Shown here: one piece after another, positions 14,246-63,077 of the stretch
How positions within the stretch are numbered: the first letter of the stretch is position 1
Layout of the letters: each line of letters begins with the position of its first letter
Virus record (IMG/VR): IMGVR_UViG_3300011013_000009
Span: 1-64,000 of that record
DNA: 64,000 nucleotides
Source: a virus
Reading direction: 5' to 3' (one strand)
Made by a program: the position numbers and the translations under genes
The notes under the pieces: generated by a model
What the model was told of the DNA's origin: nothing
Seen by the model: the letters and a program-made list of their open reading frames with translations, nothing else
Databases searched by the model: none

Positions 14246-14251
14246 AAAAGA

Positions 14252-14283
14252 TTTGGTAGAGTGAAATAAAAACCTTATATTTA
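14252..14283 (+). promoter_or_regulatory. Early promoter, TTTGG / TATATTTA
   Basis: TTTGG (14252-14256), AGTGAAAT, TATATTTA (14276-14283); before 14307. Confidence 0.7.
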
Positions 14284-14306
14284 AGAAATAATAAAAATTA
14301 AGAGAT

Positions 14307-14648
14307 ATGAAAAAGTTTAAAAAGTTTAATTTAGGAGACACCGTTAGAGCTCACGATTTTGAAGGCAATTTGGAAGTAGGAACTATTAATGCCTGTTATG
14401 TAGAAGGCATTGTAGTAGACATTGTTAGAGTAGTAGAGATAGGAGGTTGTATGTGTTATAAGCTTAAGTGTACTAAGAAAGTATTTGGAGGCGAAGAGAT
14501 TAAAGAACACAAAGGCGAAATAGTATTCAGTCCTGTTAATGGCACTAAGACATTCTTCGGTAAAGAATTAAATCAGGTTGTGTTAGTTGAGGCATTTGAT
14601 GAAGACACAGATCCCGCAGGTGGATATGGATTACATTCCCACATTTAA
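14307..14648 (+). CDS. Unknown 113-residue beta-rich protein
   Basis: KFNLGDTVRAHDFEGNLEVGTI resembles the first strands of an SH3/KOW-like barrel, and a GGCMCYKLKC segment adds three cysteines. Ends GYGLHSHI. A small beta-barrel fold is plausible. No catalytic motif. Single gene under its own promoter. Confidence 0.65.
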   Translation: MKKFKKFNLGDTVRAHDFEGNLEVGTINACYVEGIVVDIVRVVEIGGCMCYKLKCTKKVFGGEEIKEHKGEIVFSPVNGTKTFFGKELNQVVLVEAFDEDTDPAGGYGLHSHI

Positions 14649-14663
14649 AAGACGGAAAAGAAA

Positions 14664-14695
14664 TTAGGATAGTTGAAATATTATCCTTATATTTA
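14664..14695 (+). promoter_or_regulatory. Early promoter, TTAGG / TATATTTA
   Basis: TTAGG (14664-14668), GTTGAAAT, TATATTTA (14688-14695). It is the last clear promoter of this class before the late region. Confidence 0.7.
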
Positions 14696-15527: not shown

Positions 15528-15540
15528 ATATTTATATTAA
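15528..15540 (+). promoter_or_regulatory. Late-type promoter motif ATATTTATATTAA
   Basis: First clear copy of the motif that precedes genes from here on; it abuts the start codon at 15541. No TTTG lies 20 bases upstream, unlike early promoters. Confidence 0.6.
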
Positions 15541-16002
15541 ATGATAAAACTAAAGTCTATATTAACCGAACAATCAACCCCTACGGTAGTATTTGTTTCT
15601 GGATTAACTAAGTATGAATCAGTCGACGCACAGGGCAACCGAATACAAAGCGGTATGCCCGGATTCCAAGTTATAACATTTCATTATAAAGACAAAGAAA
15701 AAATTATAAAATATCTAAAAGATAACAATGTACAAGCTCTTATATTATATAGTAAGTCTTGTGAATACTGGAAGACATATAAACCATATATTAATAATAT
15801 TTTTTGCATTGAGCCATGGAATGGAAGTAATAAGATGGTATCTAGATACTCAGGGTTTCCTGCTGATAATATGTGGGTCGGCCCAGAAGATTATAGAGGG
15901 AATGGATTAAAAACTAATAATGATATAGTGCCCGGCAAAGGAACTCGGGGACATATCGAAGCCTTATCGGTTGTTTCTCTATTAATAGCTAGGAAAATAT
16001 AA
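15541..16002 (+). CDS. Putative packaged protein with capsid-targeting-like leader
   Basis: The N-terminus MIKLKSILTE|QSTP is the first of a series of matching leaders ending in Leu/Ile-x-Glu, the site type cut by T4 prohead protease gp21. The remaining 143 residues look like a compact alpha/beta domain (PTVVFVSGLTKYES, VQALILYSKSCEYW, IVPGKGTRGHIEALSVVS), possibly an enzyme-like fold with a Ser/Gly nucleophile-elbow appearance at LYSKS, but no family is recognised. Late-type promoter directly in front. Confidence 0.75.
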   Translation: MIKLKSILTEQSTPTVVFVSGLTKYESVDAQGNRIQSGMPGFQVITFHYKDKEKIIKYLKDNNVQALILYSKSCEYWKTYKPYINNIFCIEPWNGSNKMVSRYSGFPADNMWVGPEDYRGNGLKTNNDIVPGKGTRGHIEALSVVSLLIARKI

Positions 16003-16091
16003 TGATAAAACTAAAGTCTATATTAAACGAAATAGGAGATGCCTTGGTTGCTCCTTATATAACAATATCCATTCCTAGGCTTGGAGATTAG
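16002..16091 (+). CDS. Orphan copy of the leader: 29-residue frame, MIKLKSILNE start
   Basis: The first 24 bases are identical to those of the 15541 gene, giving MIKLKSILNE|IGDA, but the frame stops after 29 codons. It starts inside the preceding stop (TAATG). It is probably the remains of a duplicated member of the leader family, or a tiny peptide still sent to the head. Confidence 0.45.
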   Translation: MIKLKSILNEIGDALVAPYITISIPRLGD

Positions 16092-16150
16092 TGTATGGCC
16101 TGAAGTTTACCTGAAAGGGCGTACTTATAAGCGTACTAACGTACTACGCT

Positions 16151-16165
16151 ATATTTATTATAAAA
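16151..16165 (+). promoter_or_regulatory. Late-type promoter motif ATATTTATTATAAAA
   Basis: Lies ahead of the small frame at 16175 and the gene at 16278, with no early-type upstream element. Confidence 0.5.
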
Positions 16166-16174
16166 AGTCTCCAT

Positions 16175-16285
16175 ATGGATAACGCAGGCGATATATTGAT
16201 GGAAATACAAATAATATGCCTCACTATATTTATGTGGAAATTGTATAGGTATATACTATATAAAGAAGGTAAAGAAAATGATTAA
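16175..16285 (+). CDS. Possible tiny membrane peptide (36 aa)
   Basis: MDNAGDILMEIQIICLTIFMWKLYRY... could span the membrane once and has a basic tail. It overlaps the next start by 8 bases. Length and position fit a real small gene, but there is no other support. Confidence 0.4.
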   Translation: MDNAGDILMEIQIICLTIFMWKLYRYILYKEGKEND

Positions 16286-16925
16286 ATTAAAAGATTTATT
16301 AAAAGAGCAAAATTCATTTTTCGAACCAATTACGGGAATAGGATCACCAAAAGCTGGTACCAAGGCTGGTTCTGCATTTGTTAAAGCTGGAGAAAAAGCT
16401 GCAGATTTTGCAATAGCACGTAGTAAGGATAAGGATATCAACGTAATAACTGATTCTGAATTTCGCGCAGCCATGACAAAATTAGCTAATACGTGGAATC
16501 CTATACGAAATCAATATAAAGGTAAAACTGTAAACTTTTATAAAATAGGTACAGATGAATTGCTAGGCAATTTTAAAATAGAGAATATCATAGTTAAATA
16601 TTATGCCGGCAAAGAAGAGTTAGCGCCATATGTAGTTGTAAGATTATCAGGAGAACATAAAGGAACTGCTTATGCATATGAGCAAGATTTAAAAAGGAAT
16701 ATGTTTAAAGTAGGAAAATCTAAATTAGGTACTTATATGCCAGAAGCTCCATTAATGAATAAAGAGTTAACTAAAAGTATTTTATCAAAATGGCCTGCTA
16801 TCGATCGTATTGCTGGAGAATTATCTAATATAAAAGAGAAACAAAGAGTACCAGATGCAGATTTTACAGCTGCTATAGATTCTGAATTAGGCAATGATGA
16901 TATACAATCTACAAATATAGCTTAA
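16278..16925 (+). CDS. Putative packaged protein with leader MIKLKDLLKE
   Basis: Leader MIKLKDLLKE|QNSF, then a 205-residue body with an Ala/Lys-rich helix (AGSAFVKAGEKAADFAIARSKD), a beta-rich middle (YKGKTVNFYKIGTDELLGNFKIENIIVKYY written as alternating strands) and a helical end. No enzyme motif is recognised. By analogy with T4 internal proteins it would be matured by removal of the leader inside the prohead and leave the head with the DNA; this is inference. Confidence 0.75.
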   Translation: MIKLKDLLKEQNSFFEPITGIGSPKAGTKAGSAFVKAGEKAADFAIARSKDKDINVITDSEFRAAMTKLANTWNPIRNQYKGKTVNFYKIGTDELLGNFKIENIIVKYYAGKEELAPYVVVRLSGEHKGTAYAYEQDLKRNMFKVGKSKLGTYMPEAPLMNKELTKSILSKWPAIDRIAGELSNIKEKQRVPDADFTAAIDSELGNDDIQSTNIA

Positions 16926-16940
16926 ATTAAAAATAACGCA

Positions 16941-16954
16941 ATATTTATAATAAA
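16941..16954 (+). promoter_or_regulatory. Late-type promoter motif ATATTTATAATAAA
   Basis: Twelve bases ahead of the start at 16966. Confidence 0.6.
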
Positions 16955-16965
16955 TTGGAAAAAAA

Positions 16966-17298
16966 ATGAAATTAAAAACATTACTAGAAGGATATGCTTG
17001 GGAAAGAAAAGATGGCCAACCATTACCAACATTAAATGATGTTCAGAAAGAGCATAATAAAAAAATATCTGAATCGCCTATACAATATAATCCAAATGAT
17101 TATGAATCTGCAAAACCAAGTAATATTAATTCTCTCTTAGAGGATGCAGAAGAGGAATTGGAATCAGTAGTAAATAAATTGTCGACAGATAGTAATGTAA
17201 GTACTTCAGATAAGTTAGTTTATTTACAAAGTCTTAAAAAAATAAATTATATATTAGATAGATTACAAAATAAAGATTTATCTGGATATTTTGAATAA
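16966..17298 (+). CDS. Small protein with shortened leader MKLKTLLE
   Basis: MKLKTLLE|GYAWERKDG keeps the leader pattern with one residue fewer before the L-x-E site. The 110 residues continue with a disordered segment and a C-terminal helical hairpin (LLEDAEEELESVVNKLS...LQSLKKINYILDRLQNK). No family recognised. Likely a small head-internal or scaffold-type protein. Confidence 0.7.
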   Translation: MKLKTLLEGYAWERKDGQPLPTLNDVQKEHNKKISESPIQYNPNDYESAKPSNINSLLEDAEEELESVVNKLSTDSNVSTSDKLVYLQSLKKINYILDRLQNKDLSGYFE

Positions 17299-17310
17299 AA
17301 GGAAGAAATA

Positions 17311-17655
17311 ATGGAAGACCCTACATTAATCGGAATATTGGTTACATTATTAGGAGCATTTGGTGTTAAAGAGATTTGGACCATATGGAAAAAGAAAATC
17401 GATATCCAAGGACAAAAAGATTTAATAACATTAAGTAAAGAACATCAAATATTACATGGAGTTATAGAAGAGCAAAGAAATACAATTGAAGATATGACAA
17501 AAAGAATTGTATTGTTAGAAGATAAAATTGATCAATTAATCGAAGATAATAAAGATTGTGCTATTAAATTAGCTAGGATGGAAGAAAGATTAATATTATC
17601 AGCTAAACAAAGATCAACCAGAAAACAAAAATCAAAAAACGGTACATCAAAATGA
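17311..17655 (+). CDS. Membrane-anchored coiled-coil protein (114 aa)
   Basis: An N-terminal hydrophobic helix (about 5-20, LIGILVTLLGAFGV) is followed by a long coiled coil (residues 30-95) and a basic tail. This is the layout of i-spanins and of many phage holin-neighbour proteins, but the gene sits among leader-bearing genes and itself lacks the leader. It overlaps the next start by 4 bases. Role unknown. Confidence 0.65.
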   Translation: MEDPTLIGILVTLLGAFGVKEIWTIWKKKIDIQGQKDLITLSKEHQILHGVIEEQRNTIEDMTKRIVLLEDKIDQLIEDNKDCAIKLARMEERLILSAKQRSTRKQKSKNGTSK

Positions 17656-17957
17656 TTAAGCTAAAGAATTTATTAAAAGAAAAATATTCACACGAAGATT
17701 GGAAATCTGGCGCTACCGGAGAAATGTCTGGATATTATTTAATGAAACAATTAAATGATTTAGCACACGATGCCGAAAGATCAGAAGAGCATGATTTAGC
17801 AGATGCATATGAATGGTTACATGGTAGAATAAATCAATCTTATAGAGATATTGATCTTAATATAGTAGATATACAAGATTTATTAAATGAACCTGCGGGC
17901 AGAAAACATTGGAATAATTTGCCAATTGAATATTTGGAAGATTTATTTAATTTTTAA
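17652..17957 (+). CDS. Putative packaged protein with leader MIKLKNLLKE
   Basis: Leader MIKLKNLLKE|KYSH, then a helical 91-residue body (MKQLNDLAHDAERSEEHDLADAYEWLHGRINQ in a helix-turn-helix-like layout). The start overlaps the previous stop (ATGA). Removal of the leader would leave an acidic protein of about 10 kDa, in the range of T4 internal proteins. Confidence 0.75.
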   Translation: MIKLKNLLKEKYSHEDWKSGATGEMSGYYLMKQLNDLAHDAERSEEHDLADAYEWLHGRINQSYRDIDLNIVDIQDLLNEPAGRKHWNNLPIEYLEDLFNF

Positions 17958-17959
17958 TT

Positions 17960-18469
17960 ATGATTAAATTAAAAGATATATTATCAGAAGCATTGCCAGA
18001 TGTTCCTATGACAATGGGATTTCGTAAACACGAAAATTATGAAGATCAAATCGTAGAACAATTTTTAAGATTTTATCAAAATGATGGCGGAAATAAAACC
18101 GGAAGATTTATTGATATGGCATCGCAACTAGTTGATACATATGGGGCGGAAGCAGTACAACAAAATTTAGAACGAATTGACGACTTATCAAATCAAATTA
18201 ACGAATTAATAAAACCAATTTATAAAGGTGCTGGACATAGTGTAAAAACTCCATTAGATTCTGGAGCAAATGCAACTATATGGAAATATCTAGATGATGC
18301 ACATGAAACAGTAAATGAAATAATAAATAATAGTACATTTAATGGATGGCCAATAGATACGGTTATAGCCGAACTAGATGGTTTATATAATACATTAGAC
18401 GAACTAAAAATGATATATACAACCAATTACGGCCCAGAACCTGAAAAAAGACAGGTAGGAATGGTATGA
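17960..18469 (+). CDS. Putative packaged protein with leader MIKLKDILSE
   Basis: Leader MIKLKDILSE|ALPD is nearly identical to that of the next gene. The 169-residue product is helical, with a Gly-containing middle (KPIYKGAGHSVKTPLDSG) and an acidic surface. No family recognised. It overlaps the next gene by 4 bases (ATGA), so both should be made together. Confidence 0.75.
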   Translation: MIKLKDILSEALPDVPMTMGFRKHENYEDQIVEQFLRFYQNDGGNKTGRFIDMASQLVDTYGAEAVQQNLERIDDLSNQINELIKPIYKGAGHSVKTPLDSGANATIWKYLDDAHETVNEIINNSTFNGWPIDTVIAELDGLYNTLDELKMIYTTNYGPEPEKRQVGMV

Positions 18470-18906
18470 TTAAATTGAAAGACATATTACCTGAAGCACT
18501 TCGAGATTATGATTCAAATAACATAGATCTCCCAGCAAATGAATTTAATTTAAAAGATTTAACATTTGATGATGTGTTAGGTAACTTCCCTGGAGAGTAT
18601 AAAACCCAACAATTTACAAGAATGCAACCAAATGGACAAGAAGGACCATATTATAGAGACGGAGTATCATTTCCTAAAGTAGGTGATGGTATGACTACAA
18701 TAGGCGATTTGAAATCCTTCGAAGGTTGGAAAAAAGAGTTCTTAACTAAATTTGGAGAAACAATAATTTTATTAGACCCAGACGCAGAATGGTTTGATAA
18801 GGTTAAAATAAAAAATGATAAATTCAATCAACAATCCACTGCTAGTTCTAAAGCAATTTCAAAATATTACACAGATAAACCATCAGGTGGTTTTACTGGT
18901 GATTAG
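18466..18906 (+). CDS. Putative packaged protein with leader MIKLKDILPE
   Basis: Leader MIKLKDILPE|ALRD; the 146-residue product has no recognised motif, with several Phe/Trp-containing segments and a polar Ser/Gly tail. Shares leader and the following Ala-Leu with its upstream neighbour, which points to duplication of the 5' end of the gene followed by divergence or swapping of the body. Confidence 0.75.
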   Translation: MIKLKDILPEALRDYDSNNIDLPANEFNLKDLTFDDVLGNFPGEYKTQQFTRMQPNGQEGPYYRDGVSFPKVGDGMTTIGDLKSFEGWKKEFLTKFGETIILLDPDAEWFDKVKIKNDKFNQQSTASSKAISKYYTDKPSGGFTGD

Positions 18907-18908
18907 CC

Positions 18909-19049
18909 ATGCCCCACTATAAACTTCTTAAAAATTCATTTACGATCATTTGTGGAAAATGTGATCATGAATGGAACAGGAAAAGAATGCCCGTTACGGC
19001 TACATGTCCTAAATGTAAACATAAAGCAAAAATTAAATCTAGATTATAG
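18909..19049 (+). CDS. Tiny zinc-ribbon protein (46 aa)
   Basis: CGKC (residues 15-18) and CPKC (33-36) form a treble-clef/zinc-ribbon pair in a very basic peptide ending KAKIKSRL. Basic zinc ribbons like this usually bind nucleic acid or ribosomes. Encoded two bases after the preceding stop. Function unknown. Confidence 0.6.
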   Translation: MPHYKLLKNSFTIICGKCDHEWNRKRMPVTATCPKCKHKAKIKSRL

Positions 19050-19055
19050 TTAGTT

Positions 19056-19069
19056 ATATTTATATAAAA
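19056..19069 (+). promoter_or_regulatory. Late-type promoter motif ATATTTATATAAAA
   Basis: Perfect motif directly before the start codon at 19069, leaving almost no untranslated leader if the start point is about 7 bases downstream; a further-upstream start site is also possible. Confidence 0.55.
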
Positions 19070-19926
19070 TGATAAAGCTCAAAAACATATTATTAAATGA
19101 ACAACAAACTAAAACAGTAAAGGGAGTTGAATATTGGAGAAAAAGTGAAGGTGAACCATGGCAAGCAATAGATAAATGTGTTAAAGGTAATTGTCATCAT
19201 GGAGAAGGAGAAACTATTGGAGAAGATGGATCATTTATTGGCGAATTCAAGAATGGTAAACGATGGAAAGGAATTTTGACAGGACCAAACGGAGATCAAA
19301 TATATGTTAATGGTAAAGCTGAAATACTTAGAGAACCAGAAGAAAAATCAGGAGGATTTTTATCAGTTGCGTTAAACAGTATAATGCCCACTGATTATTT
19401 TAATTTATTACCAGTTAATGCAAAAGCTTGGGTAAAAGATTTAGTAGGAATTAAAAAAACAATTACTTCGAAAGATTTTTCAGTTAATGATTTATTAGTA
19501 TTAATTGAAATTGTTAAACGATTAAAAAAAGAAGGAAGAGTAGCAATACAATATTATGATTATAATAAGATGCTTAGGGATAATAAAATAAAAATCCAAA
19601 AGCAAGGAATTGAGAAGAGTTTTGAAGATTCAATAGCAGGTTCAATATATAGATTACGAACAACGTTAGGACGGGCTCGAATAGGCACAAATTCAGAAGG
19701 ACAAACAGTTATTGTAGATACATTTGATTTTAATAATGTCCTCTCCGGAGAGGGTAGTAGCGCTAGTTCTAAAAAAAGACAACAAGAAAAAATAATCCAA
19801 CAAATTTTAAATAATCCTACAGATCTTAGTTATGATAAAGCAAGAAGGATATCTGGTGCATTTGGTTCTGCAGACGGTGAAGGAGCTTATGTTTATATTA
19901 ATCTAGGAGATGAAGCAGATATATGA
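19069..19926 (+). CDS. Putative packaged protein with leader MIKLKNILLNE and MORN-like repeats
   Basis: Leader MIKLKNILLNE|QQTK. Next come Gly-rich repeats resembling MORN motifs (GEGETIGEDGSFIGEFKNGK, around residues 48-80), which can bind membranes or proteins. The C-terminal 190 residues are mixed, with a GAFGSADGEGAYVYINLG end and a helical middle. At 285 residues it is one of the longest leader-bearing products. No enzyme motif recognised. Confidence 0.75.
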   Translation: MIKLKNILLNEQQTKTVKGVEYWRKSEGEPWQAIDKCVKGNCHHGEGETIGEDGSFIGEFKNGKRWKGILTGPNGDQIYVNGKAEILREPEEKSGGFLSVALNSIMPTDYFNLLPVNAKAWVKDLVGIKKTITSKDFSVNDLLVLIEIVKRLKKEGRVAIQYYDYNKMLRDNKIKIQKQGIEKSFEDSIAGSIYRLRTTLGRARIGTNSEGQTVIVDTFDFNNVLSGEGSSASSKKRQQEKIIQQILNNPTDLSYDKARRISGAFGSADGEGAYVYINLGDEADI

Positions 19927-20198
19927 TTAAACTAGAAAACATATTAAAAAGTATTCCAAATCAAGAAATAGTTGAATCTGAATTAGGACAATGGGAATAT
20001 CCTGGTAGAATAACAAGAATACCAAGTAATACTATAACAATGCAACCCGATCCTAGAACAGGTAAGCCTATAGAACATATATTATTAATAATAGGAGACC
20101 AAAGCGGAGAAAAAAAGATAGGAATTCCAGGAGGACCTAATTTATTTTTTCCAACAGATACATCAGTTACTGAATATCCTATTAAAAGGCATATGTAA
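19923..20198 (+). CDS. Leader-family protein with diverged site (MIKLENILKS)
   Basis: The start MIKLENILKSIPNQ keeps the leader but lacks Glu at the expected position; a later VESELGQ could serve. The 91-residue product is short and beta-rich with a Gly/Pro-rich middle (IPGGPNLFFP). Overlaps the previous gene by 4 bases. Confidence 0.65.
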   Translation: MIKLENILKSIPNQEIVESELGQWEYPGRITRIPSNTITMQPDPRTGKPIEHILLIIGDQSGEKKIGIPGGPNLFFPTDTSVTEYPIKRHM

Positions 20199-20199
20199 C

Positions 20200-20213
20200 A
20201 TATTTATATAAAA
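20200..20213 (+). promoter_or_regulatory. Late-type promoter motif ATATTTATATAAAA
   Basis: Perfect motif, eight bases before the start at 20222, with an AAGGA Shine-Dalgarno-like stretch between. Confidence 0.65.
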
Positions 20214-20221
20214 AGGATATT

Positions 20222-20398
20222 ATGAGTAAAAAACAATTAAACGAATGGAATGATGATTCATTTAAAAAATTACCTAAGCGATGGACTAAACATTATAATA
20301 AACCTGATGGAACTGGTTTAACAGAGTTTGAGAAAAAGGGCGGCAAAGATATTCCAAAGAAGAAAACAAAAAACAACCCCAAAAAATTTAAATGGTAA
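20222..20398 (+). CDS. Tiny basic protein with leader-like start MSKKQLNE
   Basis: MSKKQLNE|WNDDSFKKLPKRW is a short leader variant ending L-N-E, followed by a Lys-rich 50-residue peptide (KKGGKDIPKKKTKNNPKKFKW). Such a basic packaged peptide could accompany DNA. Supported by promoter and by the leader site; no family recognised. Confidence 0.55.
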   Translation: MSKKQLNEWNDDSFKKLPKRWTKHYNKPDGTGLTEFEKKGGKDIPKKKTKNNPKKFKW

Positions 20399-20402
20399 AA
20401 TT

Positions 20403-21407
20403 ATGAAAAAGAAACAATTATTAAAAGAAAGATTTCAACAATTAGCTGGATTAAAAGAAATTAAAATTTTAAATGAAGAAATTCATCCACCAAAAGAATT
20501 AGCAAATGATCTAGAAAAATGGATTGGTAATTTCGAAGCAATTCCATTTGGATCGGGCCAAGTAAATTCTGTAAGAATTACTGATCCTGTTGATACAAGC
20601 AGTAGAGATATTTTACGCATCGATGGAAATGAAAAAGATGCATATTATGTAATTTGGCCAGGTAAAGATTTCCCAAAAGATCCGGCATTAGATAGTTATT
20701 TTACATCTACTCCTGATAATACATATAAACAACCACACGAAAAAATAAAAGCAGCAAATGCATTTGTATTAGTAGGCCCGAAAGTACAAAAAATATTAAG
20801 CCATGTATCTGCGTTATTAGGACCCAGCGAAGAAGAGGAAGAAGAACCAAGAGCATCGTGGTGTAAGCGAAATTTAAATTCAGATTGGTATTTTGATAAA
20901 TTAATGAATGGATTAGGATATTTAAAAGTTGGTGATTGTGGTGATGCTGTAGAAATAGCACAAGAGCATATGAATGAATTTTTACAAAAAGATTCGGGTA
21001 ACTCAGCTAATATAGTTCCTTTAAATGTAGATGGTAAGTATGGGCCAAAAACAAAAGCTGAAGTTCAAAGAGTACAAAAAGCAATAAATACTAAACCAGA
21101 TGGATATTACGGTAAAAAAACTCACGATGCACTTATAAAATTAATTAAATCTATGACAACTATAGTTAACGAACCTGAAGTAATAGATAAAATGGATATT
21201 CGTGACCCGAATAATGTTTTAGGTAAAAACAAGCCTGAACCAATTAAATTACAAACATTAGCTCCAGTAACATCAGCTGATGATTCTGAGTTTAAAGAAA
21301 AAACAAGAAAAAAATTATTTAAACGTAAAAACAAGAAATCTAAAAAATCTAAATCAACGCCGATATATGATATACCAAAAATGAAAAATAAAACATATGG
21401 TTTATAA
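20403..21407 (+). CDS. Leader-bearing protein with peptidoglycan-binding domain
   Basis: The start at 20403 gives MKKKQLLKERFQQLAGLKEIKILNEE, with L-x-E sites at LKE and LNE; an in-frame start at 20328 lies inside the previous gene and is rejected. Around residues 170-245 is a PG_binding_1-like domain (VGDCGDAVEIAQEHMNEF, LNVDGKYGPKTKAEVQRVQKA, PDGYYGKKTHDAL), which binds cell-wall peptidoglycan. The C-terminus is very basic (KKLFKRKNKKSKKSK). A packaged or ejected protein that anchors to the cell wall during DNA entry would fit; inference. Confidence 0.75.
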   Translation: MKKKQLLKERFQQLAGLKEIKILNEEIHPPKELANDLEKWIGNFEAIPFGSGQVNSVRITDPVDTSSRDILRIDGNEKDAYYVIWPGKDFPKDPALDSYFTSTPDNTYKQPHEKIKAANAFVLVGPKVQKILSHVSALLGPSEEEEEEPRASWCKRNLNSDWYFDKLMNGLGYLKVGDCGDAVEIAQEHMNEFLQKDSGNSANIVPLNVDGKYGPKTKAEVQRVQKAINTKPDGYYGKKTHDALIKLIKSMTTIVNEPEVIDKMDIRDPNNVLGKNKPEPIKLQTLAPVTSADDSEFKEKTRKKLFKRKNKKSKKSKSTPIYDIPKMKNKTYGL

Positions 21408-21409
21408 TA

Positions 21410-21595
21410 ATGCAAAAATTTTCTTTAATAAAGTTACATACATTCGATAATGAACCTATTTATATAAACAAAAAATATATCAAGAAAATATATCAAAATT
21501 CAGTAGGTATTATAGTGATACAATTATTAAATGAAGATTCTATTTTTACAAATGAAACTAGTATAGATTTATTAGCTGACAAATTATCAATGTAA
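21410..21595 (+). CDS. FlbD-like small protein (61 aa)
   Basis: The pattern IKLHTFDNEPIYINKKYIKKIYQNSVGIIVIQLLNEDSIF resembles the FlbD family (I-x-L-T-x-x-G-x-x-x-x-I-N-x-x-x-I-x-x-I), a short beta-rich protein found near flagellar genes and scattered in phages. No known activity. It sits 2 bases behind the peptidoglycan-binding gene. Confidence 0.5.
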   Translation: MQKFSLIKLHTFDNEPIYINKKYIKKIYQNSVGIIVIQLLNEDSIFTNETSIDLLADKLSM

Positions 21596-21608
21596 AGTTT
21601 TTTTACAA

Positions 21609-21621
21609 ATATTTATATAAA
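21609..21621 (+). promoter_or_regulatory. Late-type promoter motif ATATTTATATAAA
   Basis: Directly abuts the start codon at 21622. Confidence 0.6.
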
Positions 21622-22389
21622 ATGAGTGAAAAATATTTAAGAAATATTATAAGAAATCAATTATTAGCTGTCTTAAATGAACAAGAAATTGAAACTTCTC
21701 CTTTCACAGCAGCTGAAGAAAAGTTTTTAGCAAAATTTGCTGAACTAGGAACTACCTCATTGGGTATAATCTATTCGCCAAATGAAGTTGGAGTGCGTGA
21801 ATTTATCGGAAGAAGTGGGAAAGAACTAAATTTAACACCAAATGTATTAGCAAAGCTTCTTAAAGACAAAATAATTAGCATTATTCCATATGGAGGATAT
21901 GGAAGGAATGACGATTATACATTACAGTGCAACCTTCCACTTGATCAATTAGAAGGAATGAACTCAGGAACAGCAGAAGATGGTGGAGCTGATGGAGCTG
22001 AAGGAGCTGAAGCACCACCACCAGAAGGAGATTTACCTGAACCCCCGGAGGTTCCCGCAGGTCCGCCTGAAGAATCTGCAAGATCAAGCAAGGATATATC
22101 GAAATTATTGGTTTCTGAAGCAAAAAAATCAAAAAAAAAGTCCAAAAGTAAGGTTCATACCAAGAAAGCAAGGACATTAGGTCGATTACCTGGTGGTTAT
22201 GTGGTATATCTAGAACGAATTATTGAAATTTTAGGTCAAAAATTGCATACTTCATTAGAGAAAGAACATTTGGTGGCTGATATACTTGATAATTTAGCTC
22301 ATAATTTTGGTTTAACGCCACAACAAGTATATAAATCATTTATTTTTTATAGATCTCAAAATAGATTACAAAATGTTATTAAAAAATAA
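21622..22389 (+). CDS. Putative head/internal protein, leader-like start ending VLNE
   Basis: The N-terminal helix ends LLAVLNE|QEIE, an L-x-E site at residue 20. The body has an N-terminal folded part, a disordered Gly/Ala/Pro/Glu linker (about residues 112-155), a Lys-rich patch (KKSKKKSKSKVHTKKA) and a conserved-looking C-terminal helical domain (GGYVVYLERIIEILGQKL...FIFYRSQNRLQ). The basic patch suggests DNA contact. No named family recognised. Confidence 0.7.
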   Translation: MSEKYLRNIIRNQLLAVLNEQEIETSPFTAAEEKFLAKFAELGTTSLGIIYSPNEVGVREFIGRSGKELNLTPNVLAKLLKDKIISIIPYGGYGRNDDYTLQCNLPLDQLEGMNSGTAEDGGADGAEGAEAPPPEGDLPEPPEVPAGPPEESARSSKDISKLLVSEAKKSKKKSKSKVHTKKARTLGRLPGGYVVYLERIIEILGQKLHTSLEKEHLVADILDNLAHNFGLTPQQVYKSFIFYRSQNRLQNVIKK

Positions 22390-22446
22390 AATTATTATTT
22401 CTTGGAAATTACCTAAAAATTTTATATAATATAATAAAAAACAAAT

Positions 22447-22644
22447 ATGGGTTATTACACAGCAAAAGTCCAGTTAGAAGATGATTCATCTGGCAAAGTA
22501 AAAAAAGTAACTGAAATGTATCTAGTAGAAGCTATGTCAGTTACAGAAGCAGAAGCAAAAGTAGTTAAAGACTTTGGAACAACTGCATTTGATTATGAAG
22601 TCAAGGCCGTATCGGCAAGTAAAATCATTAAAATTATAGAATAA
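22447..22644 (+). CDS. DUF4494-like protein (65 aa)
   Basis: The pattern YYTAKVQLEDDSSGKVKKVTEMYLVEAMSVTEAEAKV...FDYEVKAVSASKIIKI matches what I know of DUF4494, a short Bacteroidota protein of unknown function (VKKVTExYLVdAxSxTEAEa). It supports a Bacteroidota host. One base overlap with the next gene. Confidence 0.7.
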   Translation: MGYYTAKVQLEDDSSGKVKKVTEMYLVEAMSVTEAEAKVVKDFGTTAFDYEVKAVSASKIIKIIE

Positions 22645-22931
22645 TGTATAAATTAGGAGAATCGGTTATTGTCACCGAAAGAAATAAGGACAAGTCAGAA
22701 AGACACCAAGTCGGTGTTATCATAAAACAAAGAAAAATCAAAAAACAGCCGTTTTATGATGTATTGTTAGAGACTAGGAGTGCTAGGATTATTTTAAATA
22801 CTGCTAGGTCAAATAAAACATTTATCAATAGGACACTTTCCGAAAAATTGTGCGAAAGTGGCGACATAGTCGCAACCATTCCATATCATTCTTTAGCAGA
22901 AGAAGATTTATTACCATTTATCGATTCATAA
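22644..22931 (+). CDS. Unknown 95-residue beta-rich protein
   Basis: MYKLGESVIVTERNKDKSERHQVGVIIKQRKI starts like a KOW/SH3-type barrel (GexViVt...GvIi), followed by a helical end with an acidic patch. It is linked to both neighbours by one-base TAATG overlaps. Function unknown. Confidence 0.7.
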   Translation: MYKLGESVIVTERNKDKSERHQVGVIIKQRKIKKQPFYDVLLETRSARIILNTARSNKTFINRTLSEKLCESGDIVATIPYHSLAEEDLLPFIDS

Positions 22932-23233
22932 TGGGCCGACCAAGATTACCAGAACTAGAAAAATTACAAAATCGTGTCAAGAAAAGATATCCTGGCGCAT
23001 TTTGTAGCACAAACCCATTTGGGGAGTATTATATTGATTGGAATGGTACAAATTTAAATAATACTTTTCTGTTAGATGATTGTGAGACTGAAGTAGAAGC
23101 TTGGAGACAGGCATCTATAACAGCTAAACACGAACAACATATTAATAGAACACATCCTATGAAACAATGGATGAATGAAGAAAAGAAAAATCAAAATAAA
23201 GAACGAATAACTAAAAGGATAAGAAAACAATGA
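22931..23233 (+). CDS. Unknown basic protein (100 aa)
   Basis: MGRPRLPELEKLQNRVKKRYPGAFCST... starts at an ATG overlapping the previous stop (TAATG); an in-frame start at 22850 would read over the previous gene and is rejected. A short beta part (FGEYYIDWNGT) and a Lys/Arg-rich helical tail follow. No family recognised. Confidence 0.65.
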   Translation: MGRPRLPELEKLQNRVKKRYPGAFCSTNPFGEYYIDWNGTNLNNTFLLDDCETEVEAWRQASITAKHEQHINRTHPMKQWMNEEKKNQNKERITKRIRKQ

Positions 23234-23622
23234 ATAGTATCAATCAGCCTTGGGCTATATCTGATAAATTTAGACATAAATACGGAACAATTTGGTCTGA
23301 TATGGATTTTAAAGTCAATGAAAAATTAACAAATTATATGTTTAAAACAGACCCGATGAACACATCAGTTGGGACATTAGAAATATGTGGTAAAAGTATA
23401 CCATTAAAATATAAACACTTAATATCATATACAAATACCATTTCAGAATTAGCAAAAGCATTATATTTTGAAAAAGATATATCAAAACATGATAAATTTG
23501 CAATTCCTATAGGAGCAAAAGAGTTTTATTTGAAGAAACACGAAATAGGAAAATTGAATGAAACTTTAGGAGATTCTTTGGCTTGTATAGTTAAAAGTTA
23601 CCAACTAGGACTATATTTATAA
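23230..23622 (+). CDS. Unknown 130-residue protein
   Basis: MNSINQPWAISDKFRHKYGTIW... overlaps the previous stop by 4 bases. It has a middle TLEICGKSIPLKYKHLISYTNTISELAKAL segment and an end KSYQLGLYL; probably a small alpha/beta domain. No recognised family. Confidence 0.65.
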   Translation: MNSINQPWAISDKFRHKYGTIWSDMDFKVNEKLTNYMFKTDPMNTSVGTLEICGKSIPLKYKHLISYTNTISELAKALYFEKDISKHDKFAIPIGAKEFYLKKHEIGKLNETLGDSLACIVKSYQLGLYL

Positions 23623-23625
23623 TAA
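23613..23625 (+). promoter_or_regulatory. Late-type promoter motif ATATTTATAATAA
   Basis: Overlaps the end of the previous gene and abuts the start at 23626. Confidence 0.55.
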
Positions 23626-24063
23626 ATGAACATATATGATAAAATATTAGTAAGTTTGCCGGAATATAATTTCTTTCGTGAACTACCAGATGTTGAAAAA
23701 GTACAATATCTTCTAGAAGTTTATGACATAGAAACAAAGCGTGTTGGAAATAGCATTGTTAATGGATTAAATAATTTTTTTGATGATATTCGTGAAGAAG
23801 ATGTTGAACATGGAATAGAATTTGATTCTATAGAATATGGCAATAAAAAAGATCGTGTTGATATCATGATTGATAATGAAAATATTGTTATAGAATCTAA
23901 TAGTTTAAAAGCATTAAGATATATAGCATATCGATTTGTTGATTCGGGCTATGTTATACTCAGAGACAAAAATACAGAAAAATTATTTCGAGCTGATAAA
24001 GTAACGAGGTATTTGCGAGTATATAAGATACTAGGGCAATCTAATTGTTTGTGTTATAATTAA
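23626..24063 (+). CDS. Unknown 145-residue protein
   Basis: MNIYDKILVSLPEYNFFRELPD... mixed alpha/beta with an acidic middle (DDIREEDVEHGIEFDSIEYG). No motif recognised. Has its own late-type promoter motif. Confidence 0.65.
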   Translation: MNIYDKILVSLPEYNFFRELPDVEKVQYLLEVYDIETKRVGNSIVNGLNNFFDDIREEDVEHGIEFDSIEYGNKKDRVDIMIDNENIVIESNSLKALRYIAYRFVDSGYVILRDKNTEKLFRADKVTRYLRVYKILGQSNCLCYN

Positions 24064-24069
24064 TTTTAT

Positions 24070-24306
24070 ATGAACCCACGAAATATTGTAACAAAATCTC
24101 CAACCGTAGAATATCAAGACAAAAGATATATTATTAACCGGTTAGTAAAAGAAGTAGAAGAAGAAGATCCAGAATATTGGAAATCTATTATTCCACATGA
24201 TATAGTTTTAAAAAAAGATGGAATGCTTTGGTTTCTTTATGAAATTACTGAGGTGTTCCCTATAGACATAAAACATGGCAAAGAAGAAGAAACAAAAGAT
24301 ACCTAA
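24070..24306 (+). CDS. Unknown 78-residue protein
   Basis: MNPRNIVTKSPTVEYQDKRYIINRLVKE... small alpha/beta, ending in a charged KHGKEEETKDT tail that overlaps the next gene by 32 bases. No family recognised. Confidence 0.6.
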   Translation: MNPRNIVTKSPTVEYQDKRYIINRLVKEVEEEDPEYWKSIIPHDIVLKKDGMLWFLYEITEVFPIDIKHGKEEETKDT

Positions 24307-24805
24307 ATATATTATTAACAAATTTTTAAAACCACAATTCAAAGTAGGTGATATAGTATTATATTCATTCCTAGGAGAAGGTGGTTATGGTAAAATTATA
24401 AGCATAAAAAATGAAAAAGCTGATCACAATGTTAGTTACACGGTTGAGGGGAATGGTTACAAATATCCTTGTGGCCTTAAGATTAAAGAACACAAAAGCT
24501 ACCAATTCGGATACATCTTATATGATGAAACAACAAATCATATCGGACCTCTTACAATCCCCAGAAGGAAAACTAATACAACAACAGATGATAGTAATAG
24601 CGGCAAGCGAACACCTAGAGATGGTAGCAAAATATTATCAAACAATGCCGGAGCCAGATTCGGGACAGAAAATGTTGATAGGGATATCATTACAGACAAC
24701 AGTATCCCAAATGATGAAGGCAGAAAAGATGATAGAGAGTCTTCGGAGCTCGAGTCTGCAATAGATAAACAGAAAGCTTTTTTGCGAGGATTTACTAAAA
24801 AATAG
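24275..24805 (+). CDS. KOW/Tudor-like protein with disordered C-terminal half
   Basis: After a basic start (MAKKKKQKIPKYIINKFLKPQ) comes a barrel-like segment FKVGDIVLYSFLGEGGYGKIISI, residues 25-90, typical of small beta-barrels that bind nucleic acid or protein. The C-terminal 80 residues are polar and Asp/Ser/Asn-rich. A second frame (24522-24764) overlaps exactly this polar half, so one of the two may have been overprinted on the other. Confidence 0.65.
   Translation: MAKKKKQKIPKYIINKFLKPQFKVGDIVLYSFLGEGGYGKIISIKNEKADHNVSYTVEGNGYKYPCGLKIKEHKSYQFGYILYDETTNHIGPLTIPRRKTNTTTDDSNSGKRTPRDGSKILSNNAGARFGTENVDRDIITDNSIPNDEGRKDDRESSELESAIDKQKAFLRGFTKK
24522..24764 (+). CDS. Possible overlapping gene (80 aa) nested in 24275
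   Basis: In the +1 frame, MMKQQIISDLLQSPEGKLIQQQM... encodes amphipathic helices with normal phage-like composition (many Met, Gln, Ile, Leu), while the host frame is low-complexity here. The segment has more G and C than its surroundings, as expected for doubly coding DNA. It could be an independent nested gene or be reached by frameshifting. No ribosome-binding sequence is evident, so it remains tentative. Confidence 0.35.
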   Translation: MMKQQIISDLLQSPEGKLIQQQMIVIAASEHLEMVAKYYQTMPEPDSGQKMLIGISLQTTVSQMMKAEKMIESLRSSSLQ

Positions 24806-24869
24806 GTTGGATTCTTGAATTTTATTTCTTATTATAATAATGTAATTAAAAATTTAAAAAAATAAAACC

Positions 24870-25352
24870 ATGAAAAAATTAATATTATTAGCAGGAATCC
24901 TTTTAGGATTATTTTTAGGATCAAAAGTTTTTGGACAACAATCAAATATTAAATATCCTAATATCGATAGTTTACAAACAATTGTATATGATGCATTAAC
25001 TAATTTTGATAAATATGAATATTCGTTATTGAATTCTAATATTCAAACAAAAGATACAATGTTATATCATTTTTTCGATGTATTTACTGGCAGTGGCATT
25101 TTTCTAGATACAATGGAGTCAAAAGAATGTATTAAAACTATGATTGATATAGATTTACAATCTTTTATAAAACACGATGATTATTATGTTACATTTTTAC
25201 CTAGAGATGATATGTTTTATAATAATGGTATAGATAAATGGGCGATTATTTCTAAAATGAAATCTGATATATATGACAATGTTCTATACGTAGAATTTTA
25301 TTTTAATTCTGCTAATCAATTTCATTTTGTAAAAGTTACTCATTGTAAATAA
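24870..25352 (+). CDS. Secreted or periplasmic protein with signal peptide (160 aa)
   Basis: MKKLILLAGILLGLFLGSKVFGQQSN is a classical signal peptide with likely cleavage after VFG or FGQ. The rest (about 140 residues) is mixed alpha/beta with two Cys-poor domains and no recognised motif. A phage protein exported to the periplasm could act in lysis or superinfection exclusion. It is followed by a bidirectional terminator. Confidence 0.65.
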   Translation: MKKLILLAGILLGLFLGSKVFGQQSNIKYPNIDSLQTIVYDALTNFDKYEYSLLNSNIQTKDTMLYHFFDVFTGSGIFLDTMESKECIKTMIDIDLQSFIKHDDYYVTFLPRDDMFYNNGIDKWAIISKMKSDIYDNVLYVEFYFNSANQFHFVKVTHCK

Positions 25353-25378
25353 TAATTATAGTTTATTATAACAGTAAG

Positions 25379-25399
25379 AAAGCGCTCAATGAGCGCTTT
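25379..25399. terminator. Bidirectional terminator between convergent genes
   Basis: A 9-bp stem (25379-25387/25391-25399) with an AAT loop lies between the plus gene ending at 25352 and the minus gene ending at 25426; T-rich on the right side, A-rich on the left. Confidence 0.75.
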
Positions 25400-25425
25400 T
25401 CTACATTTAACTAACAATAATATAT

Positions 25426-25983
25426 TTATGTTACATTATAAGACCAGCCTCTGTAGTCATTCCAATCATCAGCTCCTGACATATTAGGTGTTATATTTCC
25501 ACCTTGAGTACGTTTTATGTCTTGTATAACAGGCCATTTTCCCATTACTTTCGTAATGACATCCCAGTCTATTAATTGACTATTATCTTTATTACTACGT
25601 AAAAAGCTAACTAACGCCTGTGCTGGTACCATATCATGCATTTCTTTTGGTATTTTATTAACATCAAAGTAATTCAACAACCGACCTGCTGCGAACTTTA
25701 CATCATTTATAAAAAATTCATACTCGCTTTGTGAAAGATCAACTTCTCCTTGTGCATTTATTGAAGGAACCAATACAGCCTTTAAAACACCCGACCAAGG
25801 TTTCACAACGTGTTCTTTTTGTTTTTTTGTAAATCGATCATACGCCATATATTTTCGTGGCTTTCGGTTAAGAGTAGCAGTTTTTATAACTTGCGGCTCT
25901 CCTTTTTCTGGTGCTGTAGCTTGTTCAGAAAGATTTTTTGTTCCAAATCTTCTCATGTTCTCTTTTAAAATATTTAAATTCAT
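25426..25983 (-). CDS. Putative packaged protein, the only minus-strand gene
   Basis: The product starts MNLNILKE|NMRRFGTKNLSE|QATA, with two possible L-x-E cleavage sites, and so joins the leader family although it lies on the other strand. The 185-residue body contains a PWSGVLKAVLVPSI strand-helix segment and two helical parts; no enzyme motif recognised. Its own late-type promoter motif lies 27 bases upstream on the minus strand. Convergent with the 24870 gene. Confidence 0.75.
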   Translation of the reverse strand: MNLNILKENMRRFGTKNLSEQATAPEKGEPQVIKTATLNRKPRKYMAYDRFTKKQKEHVVKPWSGVLKAVLVPSINAQGEVDLSQSEYEFFINDVKFAAGRLLNYFDVNKIPKEMHDMVPAQALVSFLRSNKDNSQLIDWDVITKVMGKWPVIQDIKRTQGGNITPNMSGADDWNDYRGWSYNVT

Positions 25984-59648: not shown

Positions 59649-61226
59649 ATGGCTGAAAAAAATATAAAACAAATAATTGAAGAACAATATGTAAAGTGTG
59701 CAAATGATCCAGTATACTTTATGCGACAGTTTTGCTATATTCAACATCCTTTAAAAGGAAAAATCAAATTCGATTTATTTCCATTTCAAGAAGAATCACT
59801 ATCTACTTTACAAAATAGTCGTTATAGCGTAATATTAAAATCAAGGCAGTTGGGTATATCAACATTATCTGCTGGATATGCATTGTGGTCGATGTTATTT
59901 AATGAAGACTTCAACGTTTTGGTTATAGCAACAACACAAGATGTAGCAAAAAACTTAGTAAGTAAAGTTCAAATAATGAATGAAAATTTACCTAGTTGGT
60001 TAAAAACTACAATAACAACTAATAATAAATTATCATTAAAATTTTCAAATGGTTCGCAAATAAAAGCAATTTCAAGTGCATCAACAGGAGCTCGGTCAGA
60101 AGCATTATCATTACTAATAGTTGATGAAGCCGCATTTATTAGAAACATCGAAGAGATATGGGTGGCATCACAAGCAACGCTATCAACAGGTGGTGGCGCT
60201 ATTGTTTTATCTACCCCAAATGGTTTAGGAAATTGGTTTCATCAAATATGGGCAGATGCTGAAACTGGCACAAATGGGTTTGAAACAATTAAGTTAAAAT
60301 GGGACCTTCACCCAGAACGTGATCAATCTTGGAGAGATGACCAAACAAAGTTATTAGGCGAAAGAGGAGCAGCTCAAGAATGTGATTGTGATTTTATATC
60401 ATCAGGTCATACTATTGTCGATGGGGCAATATTACAACAATATGAATTAAAATGTGAAGATCCGGTTGAAAAAAGAGGATATGATAACGGTTATTGGATT
60501 TGGGAATATCCAGACTATACAAAAAATTATATAGTAGTAGCAGATGTCGCAAGGGGCGATGGAGCAGATTGGTCTGCATTTCATGTAATCGATGTTGAAA
60601 CAATAACCCAGGTAGCAGAGTATAAAGGAAAGCTACCACCTAAAGATTTTGGCAACATGTTAGTATCAGTTGCAACAGAATGGAATAATGCATTATTAGC
60701 AATTGAAAATGCAAATATAGGATGGGCGGCAGTACAGCCAGCATTAGATAGAGGATATGAAAATCTATTTTATACATATAAAACAGAAGGATATGTAGAT
60801 TTAGAAGTACAATTACAAAAAGGATATGACATAAAAGATAAAACAAAAATGGTACCTGGAGTCTCAACTACAAGTAGAACTAGGCCATTAATGATATCTG
60901 CATTAGAAATGTATATGAGAGAAGGAACGCCTATTATTAAATCAAAACGACTTATACAAGAATTATTTGTATTTGTCTGGCTTAACGGTAAAGCACAGGC
61001 ACAGATTGGTTATAATGATGACTTAGTAATGAGTTATGCAATAGGATTGTGGTTAAGAGATACTAGTTTAAAATTAAGACAACATGGAATTGAATTAAAT
61101 AAACGAGCATTATCACAATTTAGAAAAACAGATACAACCATTTATACTAATAATAACACAAAACAAAATGATAGTTGGAAATGGAATAATGGTTCAGAAG
61201 ACGAAAATTTAACCTGGCTTCTGTAA
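59649..61226 (+). CDS. Terminase large subunit, T4 gp17-like
   Basis: The 525 residues show the packaging ATPase then nuclease plan. Walker A is the variant KSRQLGIS (64-71), where T4 has SRQLGKT; Walker B is LLIVDEA (D159, E160), followed by a coupling motif STPNG. The nuclease part has an RNase H-like acidic set starting VVADVARGDGADWS (around 300) and ending YNDDLVMSYAIG (around 455-465). It drives DNA into the prohead and cuts the concatemer. It is followed directly by the portal gene. Confidence 0.9.
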   Translation: MAEKNIKQIIEEQYVKCANDPVYFMRQFCYIQHPLKGKIKFDLFPFQEESLSTLQNSRYSVILKSRQLGISTLSAGYALWSMLFNEDFNVLVIATTQDVAKNLVSKVQIMNENLPSWLKTTITTNNKLSLKFSNGSQIKAISSASTGARSEALSLLIVDEAAFIRNIEEIWVASQATLSTGGGAIVLSTPNGLGNWFHQIWADAETGTNGFETIKLKWDLHPERDQSWRDDQTKLLGERGAAQECDCDFISSGHTIVDGAILQQYELKCEDPVEKRGYDNGYWIWEYPDYTKNYIVVADVARGDGADWSAFHVIDVETITQVAEYKGKLPPKDFGNMLVSVATEWNNALLAIENANIGWAAVQPALDRGYENLFYTYKTEGYVDLEVQLQKGYDIKDKTKMVPGVSTTSRTRPLMISALEMYMREGTPIIKSKRLIQELFVFVWLNGKAQAQIGYNDDLVMSYAIGLWLRDTSLKLRQHGIELNKRALSQFRKTDTTIYTNNNTKQNDSWKWNNGSEDENLTWLL

Positions 61227-61256: not shown

Positions 61257-63077
61257 ATGGCATCATTAAGAAAACGTTTAAGAAATTTATTTTCTACTAA
61301 TGTAATAGTACGTAAGTATGGAAAAGATCGTCTAAGAGTAGTCGATACTAACAGATTACAGTCATTAGGAAATTTATCACAAAGCAAGTTAACGGATAGA
61401 TATAATCGATTACACGGCACAACTAAACATAATATGGGTGGTTATGGCGGATATGATTCGAATTACTACATGCAACAGAATCGTATGCAATTGTATACTG
61501 ATTACGAGATGATGGATAAAGACCCAATAATATCATCTGCATTAGATATATATGCTGACGAATCAACATTAGCAGATCAGTTCGGCGATATATTAACTAT
61601 TAAAACAAATAAAACTCATATACAAAAAATATTATACAATTTATATTATGACATATTAAACATTGAATTTAATATGTGGCCATGGATTCGTAATATGTGT
61701 AAGTATGGAGATTTCTTTTTAAAATTAGATGTTGCTGAAGAAATAGGAATTTTAAATGCACGCCCACTTTCTACTTATGAAATTGAAAGATTGGAACAGT
61801 ATGACGAAACAACGGGTGAATATGATATTAAATTTAGACACGCCGCAACAGAACATTTAGAATATGATGTGTTTGAGATAGCACACTTCAGGTTATTATC
61901 AGATTCAAACTTCCTCCCATACGGCCGAGCAATGCTTGAAGGAGCTAGACAAGAATTTCAAAAATTAATGATGTTAGAAGATGCAATGCTTATTCACAGA
62001 ATAATGAGAGCACCCGAAAAACGTATTTTTAAAATTGATATTGGTAATATTCCACCCAATGAAGTTGATTCATTTATGGAAACAATTATTAATAAAATGA
62101 AAAAAATTCCATATGTTGATAAACAAACTGGTAACTATAATCTTAAATTTAATTTGAATAATATGTTAGAAGATTATTACTTACCTGTGCGGGGAGGCAA
62201 TAGTCAAACGACAATAGATACACTACCAGGAATGGAGTTTACCGGCATTGATGACATCGAATATGTAAAACACAAAATGATGGCAGCATTGAAAATTCCT
62301 AAACCATTTTTAGGATATGATGAGGGAGTTGAAGGGAAAACTACATTAGCGTCAATGGATATTAGGTTTGCAAGAACAATTGAAAGAATTCAAAAAATAG
62401 TTGTTTCAGAATTAGTTAAAATTGGAATTGTACATTTATATTCTCAAGGCTATGAAGGAGATGATTTAATAGGATTTGAGTTAGAATTGACTCCGCCATC
62501 TATAATTTACGATCAACAAAAAGTTGCATTGATGAATGAAAAAGTAACTTTAGCATCTGCAATGAAGGATCTAAAACTAGTTTCAGATAAATACATTTAT
62601 GAGTATATTTTCAATATGTCTGAAGATGAGTGGTTAGAAGAGCGTAATAATGTTATAGAAGATCTTAAATTAAGATTTAGACAAAATCAAATTGAACAAG
62701 AAGGTAATGATCCAACATTAACAGGAACATCATTTGGAACACCACATGATTTGGCGTCAATTCATATGAGTACCGATGACGTAGAAGATAAAGATCCGGG
62801 GGGCAGACCACCCGAAGGAATTAAATATGGACAGCACAAAAATGAATTTGGTTGGGATCCAACTGGGGCTAAAACAATTAAGCAAGGAACAGATCCAAAC
62901 AATATCACAACCACATTCCAACCAGATCCTAGATTTAGAAATACAAAAACAACTGTAGCAACTGAAAATGCTGATATTTTAAAGAAATTAAGACCTAAAA
63001 GCCCAAAGATTATAACAGAAGATCAAAATAAAGATGTAGATTCTGGAACAATGTTGGACGAAGACAATATTTTATAA
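61257..63077 (+). CDS. Portal vertex protein, T4 gp20-like
   Basis: The 606-residue product has the gp20 features: a DYEMMDKDPIISSALDIYADEST segment (about 82-104), AHFRLLSDSNFLPYGRAMLEGARQEFQKLMMLEDAMLIHRIMRAPEKRIFKIDIGNIPPNEVDSFM (read in segments, about 205-270), and GMEFTGIDDIEYVKHKMMAALKIPKPFLGYDEGV (about 325-360). The C-terminal 130 residues are polar. Twelve copies form the ring through which DNA enters and leaves the head. Confidence 0.92.
   Translation: MASLRKRLRNLFSTNVIVRKYGKDRLRVVDTNRLQSLGNLSQSKLTDRYNRLHGTTKHNMGGYGGYDSNYYMQQNRMQLYTDYEMMDKDPIISSALDIYADESTLADQFGDILTIKTNKTHIQKILYNLYYDILNIEFNMWPWIRNMCKYGDFFLKLDVAEEIGILNARPLSTYEIERLEQYDETTGEYDIKFRHAATEHLEYDVFEIAHFRLLSDSNFLPYGRAMLEGARQEFQKLMMLEDAMLIHRIMRAPEKRIFKIDIGNIPPNEVDSFMETIINKMKKIPYVDKQTGNYNLKFNLNNMLEDYYLPVRGGNSQTTIDTLPGMEFTGIDDIEYVKHKMMAALKIPKPFLGYDEGVEGKTTLASMDIRFARTIERIQKIVVSELVKIGIVHLYSQGYEGDDLIGFELELTPPSIIYDQQKVALMNEKVTLASAMKDLKLVSDKYIYEYIFNMSEDEWLEERNNVIEDLKLRFRQNQIEQEGNDPTLTGTSFGTPHDLASIHMSTDDVEDKDPGGRPPEGIKYGQHKNEFGWDPTGAKTIKQGTDPNNITTTFQPDPRFRNTKTTVATENADILKKLRPKSPKIITEDQNKDVDSGTMLDEDNIL

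Follow-up and report, generated by a model that had tools for sequence, protein, structure and literature searches.

The 64,000-nucleotide window analyzed here (bases 1-64000 of the 77,441-base IMG/VR contig IMGVR_UViG_3300011013_000009) carries an island of genes, located between positions 15541 and 25983, many of whose products begin with a common leader of about ten residues ending in Leu/Ile-x-Glu. We consider it highly probable that these leader proteins are packaged into the phage head and cut there, and that they represent a cargo system of the kind used by phage T4 with its capsid-targeting sequence (CTS), but one whose leader is new and whose repertoire is far larger. In T4, CTS-driven packaging, cutting by the prohead protease gp21 and injection have all been shown experimentally by others. 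By gp21, Microcystis phage Mel-JY01 and Flavobacterium phage immuto are the closest isolates to the phage described here, and we would therefore place it among the Far-T4-type phages (cf. PMC4360716, PMC7198788), whose hosts are probably Bacteroidota and other aquatic bacteria.

Six full-length open reading frames (ORFs) of 101-285 amino acids, all on the plus strand, begin with MIKLK[SDN][IL]L-x(1-2)-E, and their bodies have nothing in common after the leader. They are located at 15541..16002 (MIKLKSILTE↓Q, the arrow marking the predicted cut; 153 amino acids, with a mature product of 16.2 kDa and an isoelectric point (pI) of 9.3), 16278..16925 (MIKLKDLLKE↓Q, 215 amino acids), 17652..17957 (MIKLKNLLKE↓K, 101 amino acids, with 46% identity to a leader protein of locus L058), 17960..18469 (MIKLKDILSE↓A, 169 amino acids), 18466..18906 (MIKLKDILPE↓A, 146 amino acids, with a body akin to those of leader proteins in L257-L260) and 19069..19926 (MIKLKNILLNE↓Q, 285 amino acids). 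The first-pass annotation had counted eight products with this type of start, and the remaining two did not hold up. At 16002..16091 (plus strand), the leader MIKLKSILNE, encoded by DNA almost the same as that of the 15541 leader, heads a body that has decayed. With only 29 amino acids and stop codons in every frame, this ORF is a remnant and not a product. The decayed cargo gene that follows this intact leader (16002-16277) has first residues, EIGDALVAPY, that resemble those of intact leader proteins in L054 and L307. The 19923 product begins with MIKLENILKSIPN, has no L-x-E where one would be required and shows 85-91% conservation among relatives; it was therefore not counted and is probably not a member of the set.

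The same annotation had listed five shorter or altered leaders ending in L-x-E. For four of these, evidence from homologues leads us to regard them as true leader variants. The product of 16966..17298 (plus strand) has the short leader MKLKTLLE↓G and belongs to a body family (GYAWER..G.PLPTL) that in relatives sits after MIKLKNILSE↓A (L101) and MIKLKNLLKE↓G. Likewise, the 58-amino-acid product of 20222..20398 (plus strand; MSKKQLNE↓W) has a body that is found after MIKLKDLLKE↓W in L131, which we read as leader exchange on one body. The conserved island protein of 21622..22389 (plus strand) carries a longer leader ending in ...AVLNE↓Q, and Glu20-Gln21 is invariant in five aligned homologues while flanking leader residues vary. 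On the minus strand, 25426..25983 encodes the two-site leader MNLNILKENMRRFGTKNLSE↓Q, a form (ILxENMRRFGTKNLxE) that recurs in relatives on unrelated bodies and is also found fused after MIKLKNILAE. The fifth, at 20403..21407 (plus strand), has a two-site leader (MKKKQLLKE↓R...IKILNE) ahead of a PG_binding_1 peptidoglycan-binding domain (8.2e-9); homologues speak for the other variants only, and the backing for this one is its resemblance to the immuto leader MKKQILSEQFKRMQKLAGIITE. Immuto itself (L007, L009) carries other leader families in which about ten residues separate two L-x-E sites; these are MENFDLKKFLVENKLTTNSKILKE and MKKQILSEQFKRMQKLAGIITE, and each occurs on at least two unrelated bodies. 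The starts of its leader families are MENFDLKKFLVE and MKKQILSEQFKRMQKLAGIITE.

The leader is far more frequent than chance would allow. With nothing but the leader as query, a scan of IMG/VR gave at least 120 loci, compared with two for a scrambled pattern, and in 27 records the leader pattern matched 60 times and the reversed pattern not at all. Its regular expression matches six of the 115 ORFs in this genome versus none of 1823 ORFs in control phage loci. Given these controls, a chance origin was rejected; a translation-start artefact was also considered and rejected. A collection of 189 MIKLK ORFs falls into 105 unrelated body clusters, and an alignment of 106 leader ORFs yields the consensus MIKLKDILxE with nothing conserved after it. 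Codon conservation drops to background past codon 10, but in a set whose selection itself involved positions 1-5, 7, 8 and 10. A fair test is therefore provided by the 55 of the 189 MIKLK ORFs that were not selected for Glu, 52 of which carry [LIVMF]-x-E at residues 6-14, compared with 11% of control ORFs. The conservation is at the protein level: MIKLK is spelled in 31 ways in DNA and Lys and Arg exchange at leader positions 3 and 5.

The leader also matches the T4 signal residue by residue. The T4 CTS comprises ten residues, of which 4 and 7 serve targeting and 8 and 10 serve processing, and T4 gp21 cleaves after (L/I)-x-E (PMC9026906). This register (4/7/8/10) is kept in the Far-T4 leaders as L4, D/N6, I/L7, L8 and E10. 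The T4 sequences examined were those of internal proteins (IPs) II and III (MKTYQEFIAE↓A), Alt (MELITELFDE↓D) and gp24 (MAKINELLRE↓S). When 69 T4 proteins were ranked with a profile built from Far-T4 leaders only, gp24 came first, Alt eighth, and the two IPs tested 12th and 13th. The protease specificity, (L/I/V)-x-E, is visible in the gp23 proteins of these phages, where Q[LI][LVI]xE↓A aligns with Glu65↓Ala66 of T4. The residue that follows the predicted cut (P1′) in the leader proteins is A, G or S in 35% of cases versus a background of 19% (p=2e-6). The proposed parallel with the T4 CTS is thus upheld by the register, by an S77-type gp21, by the preserved E↓A cut in gp23 and by the linkage to head genes described below. 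The more specific likeness to T4 IP leaders is borne out for the register, whereas the closest T4 relative is the gp24 propeptide and not an IP leader.

Comparison with known systems defines what is shared and what differs. Like IPI, IPII and IPIII of T4 (PMC9026906, PMC3012670, PMC12373910), the Far-T4 products combine a leader of approximately ten residues, hydrophobic at 4, 7 and 8 and with Glu10, with an S77 gp21 in the genome, unrelated bodies after one leader, and clustered, swapping loci. However, the leaders differ (MKTYQEFIAE in T4, MIKLKDILxE in Far-T4), the Far-T4 bodies form over 100 clusters and include many enzymes, and up to 11 leaders stand on a single contig, one of 75 kb. T4 IPs are also basic, whereas the mature Far-T4 products are of mixed pI. 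Because only the register is shared with the IPs, which rank 12th and 13th of 69, and because the mature proteins are not uniformly small and basic, we did not file this set as T-even IPs. The gp24 propeptide is removed as the first ten residues by the prohead protease (PMC9958956), but T4 gp24 is a shell vertex protein and not cargo. Alt, an enzyme that is injected, has a propeptide of ten residues in this same register; it is an ADP-ribosyltransferase, whereas motifs of this type among Far-T4 cargo are an unproven lead only. In the giant phages phiKZ and SPN3US, a diverged gp21 relative frees head cargo from its propeptide after a Glu (PMC9026906); the Far-T4 phages differ in having the standard head genes of T4 and one short leader in common.

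The T4 head module forms the right end of the contig. Following the gp17-type terminase large subunit (59649..61226) and the T4-type portal gp20 (61257..63077), both on the plus strand, there are, beyond the window, gp21 at contig position 64536 (PF03420 Peptidase_S77, 6.6e-31; PHROG head maturation protease, 1.5e-54), a small prohead-core gene at 65162, a gp22-like scaffold gene at 66423 and gp23 at 67529 (PF07068, 1.4e-76). A weak ribosomal protein S21-like gene also lies within the module (contig positions 65987-66244; L006 4988-5245), and the Mel-JY01 annotation includes one too. A gene for gp21, gp22, gp23 or the core protein is present in 36 of the 120 leader-fetched loci listed and in none of 120 control loci fetched with an unrelated N-terminal pattern (p=1e-12), and 13 of the 24 leader contigs of at least 50 kb have an S77 gene. 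Moreover, the core gene adjoining gp21 carries MIKLKDLLNE, MAKLKDLLGE or similar leaders in many relatives, and several gp23 proteins begin with a kindred motif (MDLKNILNE, MNISSLLE).

Published proteomics of the T4-like cyanophage S-CREM2, which detected 52 of 219 proteins in virions (PMC10665884, Table 3), offers an independent view of the register. When the 219 annotated proteins were screened with M..[FYLI]..[FLIM][LIMF].E, there were five matches: the S-adenosylmethionine (SAM) hydrolase gp6 (MKDFDSFLEE), gp13 (MKDLHSFLTE), the kinase gp14 (MKRFDAFLTE), gp136 (MQTFSMFFSE) and the cytidylyltransferase gp154 (MKNFSSFLTE). All five are among the virion proteins detected by mass spectrometry and none falls outside that list (Fisher p=4e-5, a value that is somewhat optimistic because, although the register was derived from T4 and Far-T4, the exact residue classes were fixed after a partial view of the S-CREM2 list). 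The SAM hydrolase, the APH-like kinase, the cytidylyltransferase and gp13 thus share the register of the Far-T4 leader, while the leader itself is of the type MKxFxxFLxE (MKxLxxFLxE in gp13). Mention of such a leader was sought in the text of the S-CREM2 paper and none was found (PMC10665884). A virion-detected Cas9-like nuclease, gp12 (L314 7704-10313), has RFASFMAE↓A at residues 18-25, like the leader of its neighbors, and its annotated start may be too early.

The contents of the island turn over rapidly. In 55 relatives reached through the 21622 family, the same island carries different cargo. Contigs L258 and L259 are 96-99% identical in flanking DNA, and yet L259 has a leader gene that L258 lacks, and at a second slot the bodies after the leader are wholly different in the two. 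The junctions of this insertion and the 5′ junction of the replacement fall within the leader or at its end. Among 47 deduplicated insertion, deletion or replacement events, nine break at the leader, a region making up 1.2% of positions in the expectation (p=4e-9).

From these observations, a pathway can be proposed in which the leader serves as a propeptide of approximately ten residues that would bind the scaffold core during prohead assembly and draw the attached protein into the prohead. The S77 protease gp21 would then cut after Glu10 of (L/I)-x-E, as it does in gp23, to free the mature body within the head. The body would be packed there alongside the DNA and, most likely, pass into the host when infection occurs. 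The sequences show the leader, its register, the protease, the head-gene linkage, the modular swapping and an upstream element shared with structural genes, and the S-CREM2 proteome shows that the register marks virion proteins; that the window proteins bind the scaffold and are packaged, cut and injected is what we infer. Injection of most leader proteins is likely, although less so than their packaging and cutting, and the function of any single cargo protein is less secure still. In the host, the bodies could act as pre-made takeover, counter-defense or cell-wall enzymes; the anti-defense roles in particular are ones that we infer. Recombination within the leader DNA would swap bodies and generate the fast-changing island. 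A gene would become cargo simply by gaining a leader, since nothing else is needed for targeting. We see even chances that the leader DNA is both address label and recombination joint, creating an open, integron-like island in which any gene joined to the leader of approximately 30 nucleotides becomes an injected effector.

The bodies bear on whether these proteins are effectors or parts of the head. Pfam matches on leader bodies include Nudix, zeta-toxin/kinase, GNAT, ATP-grasp, M23 peptidase, lysozymes, cell-wall hydrolase and exonuclease. The C-terminal part of the 19069 product matches PHROG 7348 (annotated endolysin, 1.8e-11) and has very weak similarity to the PBECR3 nuclease, and apart from this protein and 20403 the window bodies gave no informative family match. 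No relatives of 15541 or 19069 were found in IMG/VR, nor any PDB sequence match of value. A fold predicted for 21622 from five sequences was of low confidence (predicted local distance difference test score, 55) without a significant PDB match, and one for the FHVT cargo family (L025 and others; predicted template modeling score, 0.62) returned nothing significant by Foldseek. ADP-ribosyltransferase folds recur among the insignificant matches of the FHVT family, which makes this activity only a lead. Short, leaderless Dps/ferritin-like proteins (FHWQ motif) adjoin cargo genes in L095, L068 and L101.

It could be argued that the packaged and cut proteins are mainly structural helpers of the prohead core or of DNA condensation rather than injected effectors, given that one leader family is the conserved core gene adjoining gp21, that T4 IPIII affects head assembly (PMC9026906), and that some window bodies are small and have no detectable domains. 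We consider this unlikely. One hundred and five unrelated clusters with many enzymes (Nudix, GNAT, kinase, exonuclease, peptidase), swapped rapidly between near-identical genomes, are unlike assembly parts, and T4 Ip1-3 block restriction enzymes (PMC12373910).

Several points nevertheless weigh against packaging of the leader proteins as injected cargo. The S-CREM2 authors warn of possible co-purification (PMC10665884). Virion proteomics turned up neither for this phage nor for close relatives of it, and a literature search for the virion proteome of immuto likewise found none. Mature window products range in pI from 4.5 to 10.1, and five of 11 are acidic, unlike the basic T4 IPs. One lysozyme and one protein resembling a tail lysozyme bear the leader, perhaps pointing to action at a different site, and the 47 breakpoint events are not mutually independent. 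Finally, an S77 gene is missing from 11 of the 24 large leader contigs; a T4 portal lies near the end of one and another has a T4 gp15, and the others are fragments that allow no judgment.

These S77-less contigs, together with the A-rich DNA that encodes the motif, would fit a different use for the N terminus, such as translation initiation, membrane docking or a degradation signal, with the link to head genes reflecting shared T4-like ancestry. Conservation at the protein level that ends at Glu10, the bias to small residues at P1′, the identity of the register with that of the T4 CTS, and the success of the same register in predicting virion presence in S-CREM2 make such a use very improbable. 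Recent tandem duplication of one gene family, which the nearly identical leader DNA of 15541 and 16002 might suggest, was rejected as having almost no chance of being correct, since the bodies are unrelated, the leaders differ at synonymous sites and in IMG/VR over 100 clusters of unrelated bodies carry this same leader.

The leader island and the structural genes have the upstream element TATTTATA in common. This element lies 12-33 nucleotides upstream of 17 of the 72 genes from 15.5 kb on, where 1.1 would be expected, and it precedes five leader-type genes (15541, 16966, 19069, 20222 and 21622) as well as the portal gene at 61257. The copy at 15529..15536 (plus strand) is 12 nucleotides from its gene, as are those upstream of 19069 and 21622. 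Sites in the window are at 15529, 16942, 19057, 20201, 21610, 31779, 40704, 50882, 54237, 57439, 61234 and 63087. The element is on the coding strand and orientation specific, and precedes 15-17% of ORFs across Far-T4 loci versus 0.9% in controls. A T4-style TATAAATA late promoter was sought and TATTTATA was found instead, making the latter a putative late promoter unlike that of T4. Approximately 15 copies of a longer box (AAAGATTAGG-n-TTGAAATATTAT-CTTATATTTAAGAAATAATAAAAATTAAGAGATATG, around CTTATATTTAAG) precede genes at 3833-14686 of the window, with none beyond 14.7 kb; this box is likely an early promoter. A phage sigma-70 family factor with regions 1.2, 2 and 4 is encoded at 10887-11624 and is a candidate reader of one of the two promoter classes. 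A 1059-amino-acid protein encoded at 54259-57438 resembles an NMNAT-like nucleotidyltransferase at its N terminus (VLFPGGFKPITGAHMALAQRY), and its middle part matches a polynucleotide-kinase PHROG; proteins of the NMNAT-like type are known from cyanophage virions.

The CTS principle is that of T4 and has already been proposed as a general device of T4-like phages (PMC9026906), and T-even ip genes have been found through their signal (PMC12373910). Within the literature searched, the novelties appear to be a different leader in Far-T4 phages, akin to that of gp24; a repertoire of this size and enzymatic character; the part of the leader as a recombination joint; leader families with two sites; and the correspondence with cyanophage virion enzymes that had been unexplained.

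Outside a few model phages, little is known of what phage heads contain. With the leader described here, ten residues single out over 100 clusters of unrelated proteins as probable virion cargo of common aquatic phages. The signature also suggests how an import signal may be provided for puzzling cyanophage virion enzymes (kinase, SAM hydrolase and nicotinamide mononucleotide (NMN) adenylyltransferase-like). Because the leader is shared, cargo proteins not previously recognized can be found from sequence alone, and the question of what these phages inject becomes a sequence search that provides a large supply of candidate anti-defense and takeover proteins. The new leaders are also on offer for loading proteins into T4-like capsids. 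If the leader is indeed both label and joint, these phages would possess a very large, mostly uncharacterized repertoire of injected effectors that can be listed from sequence.

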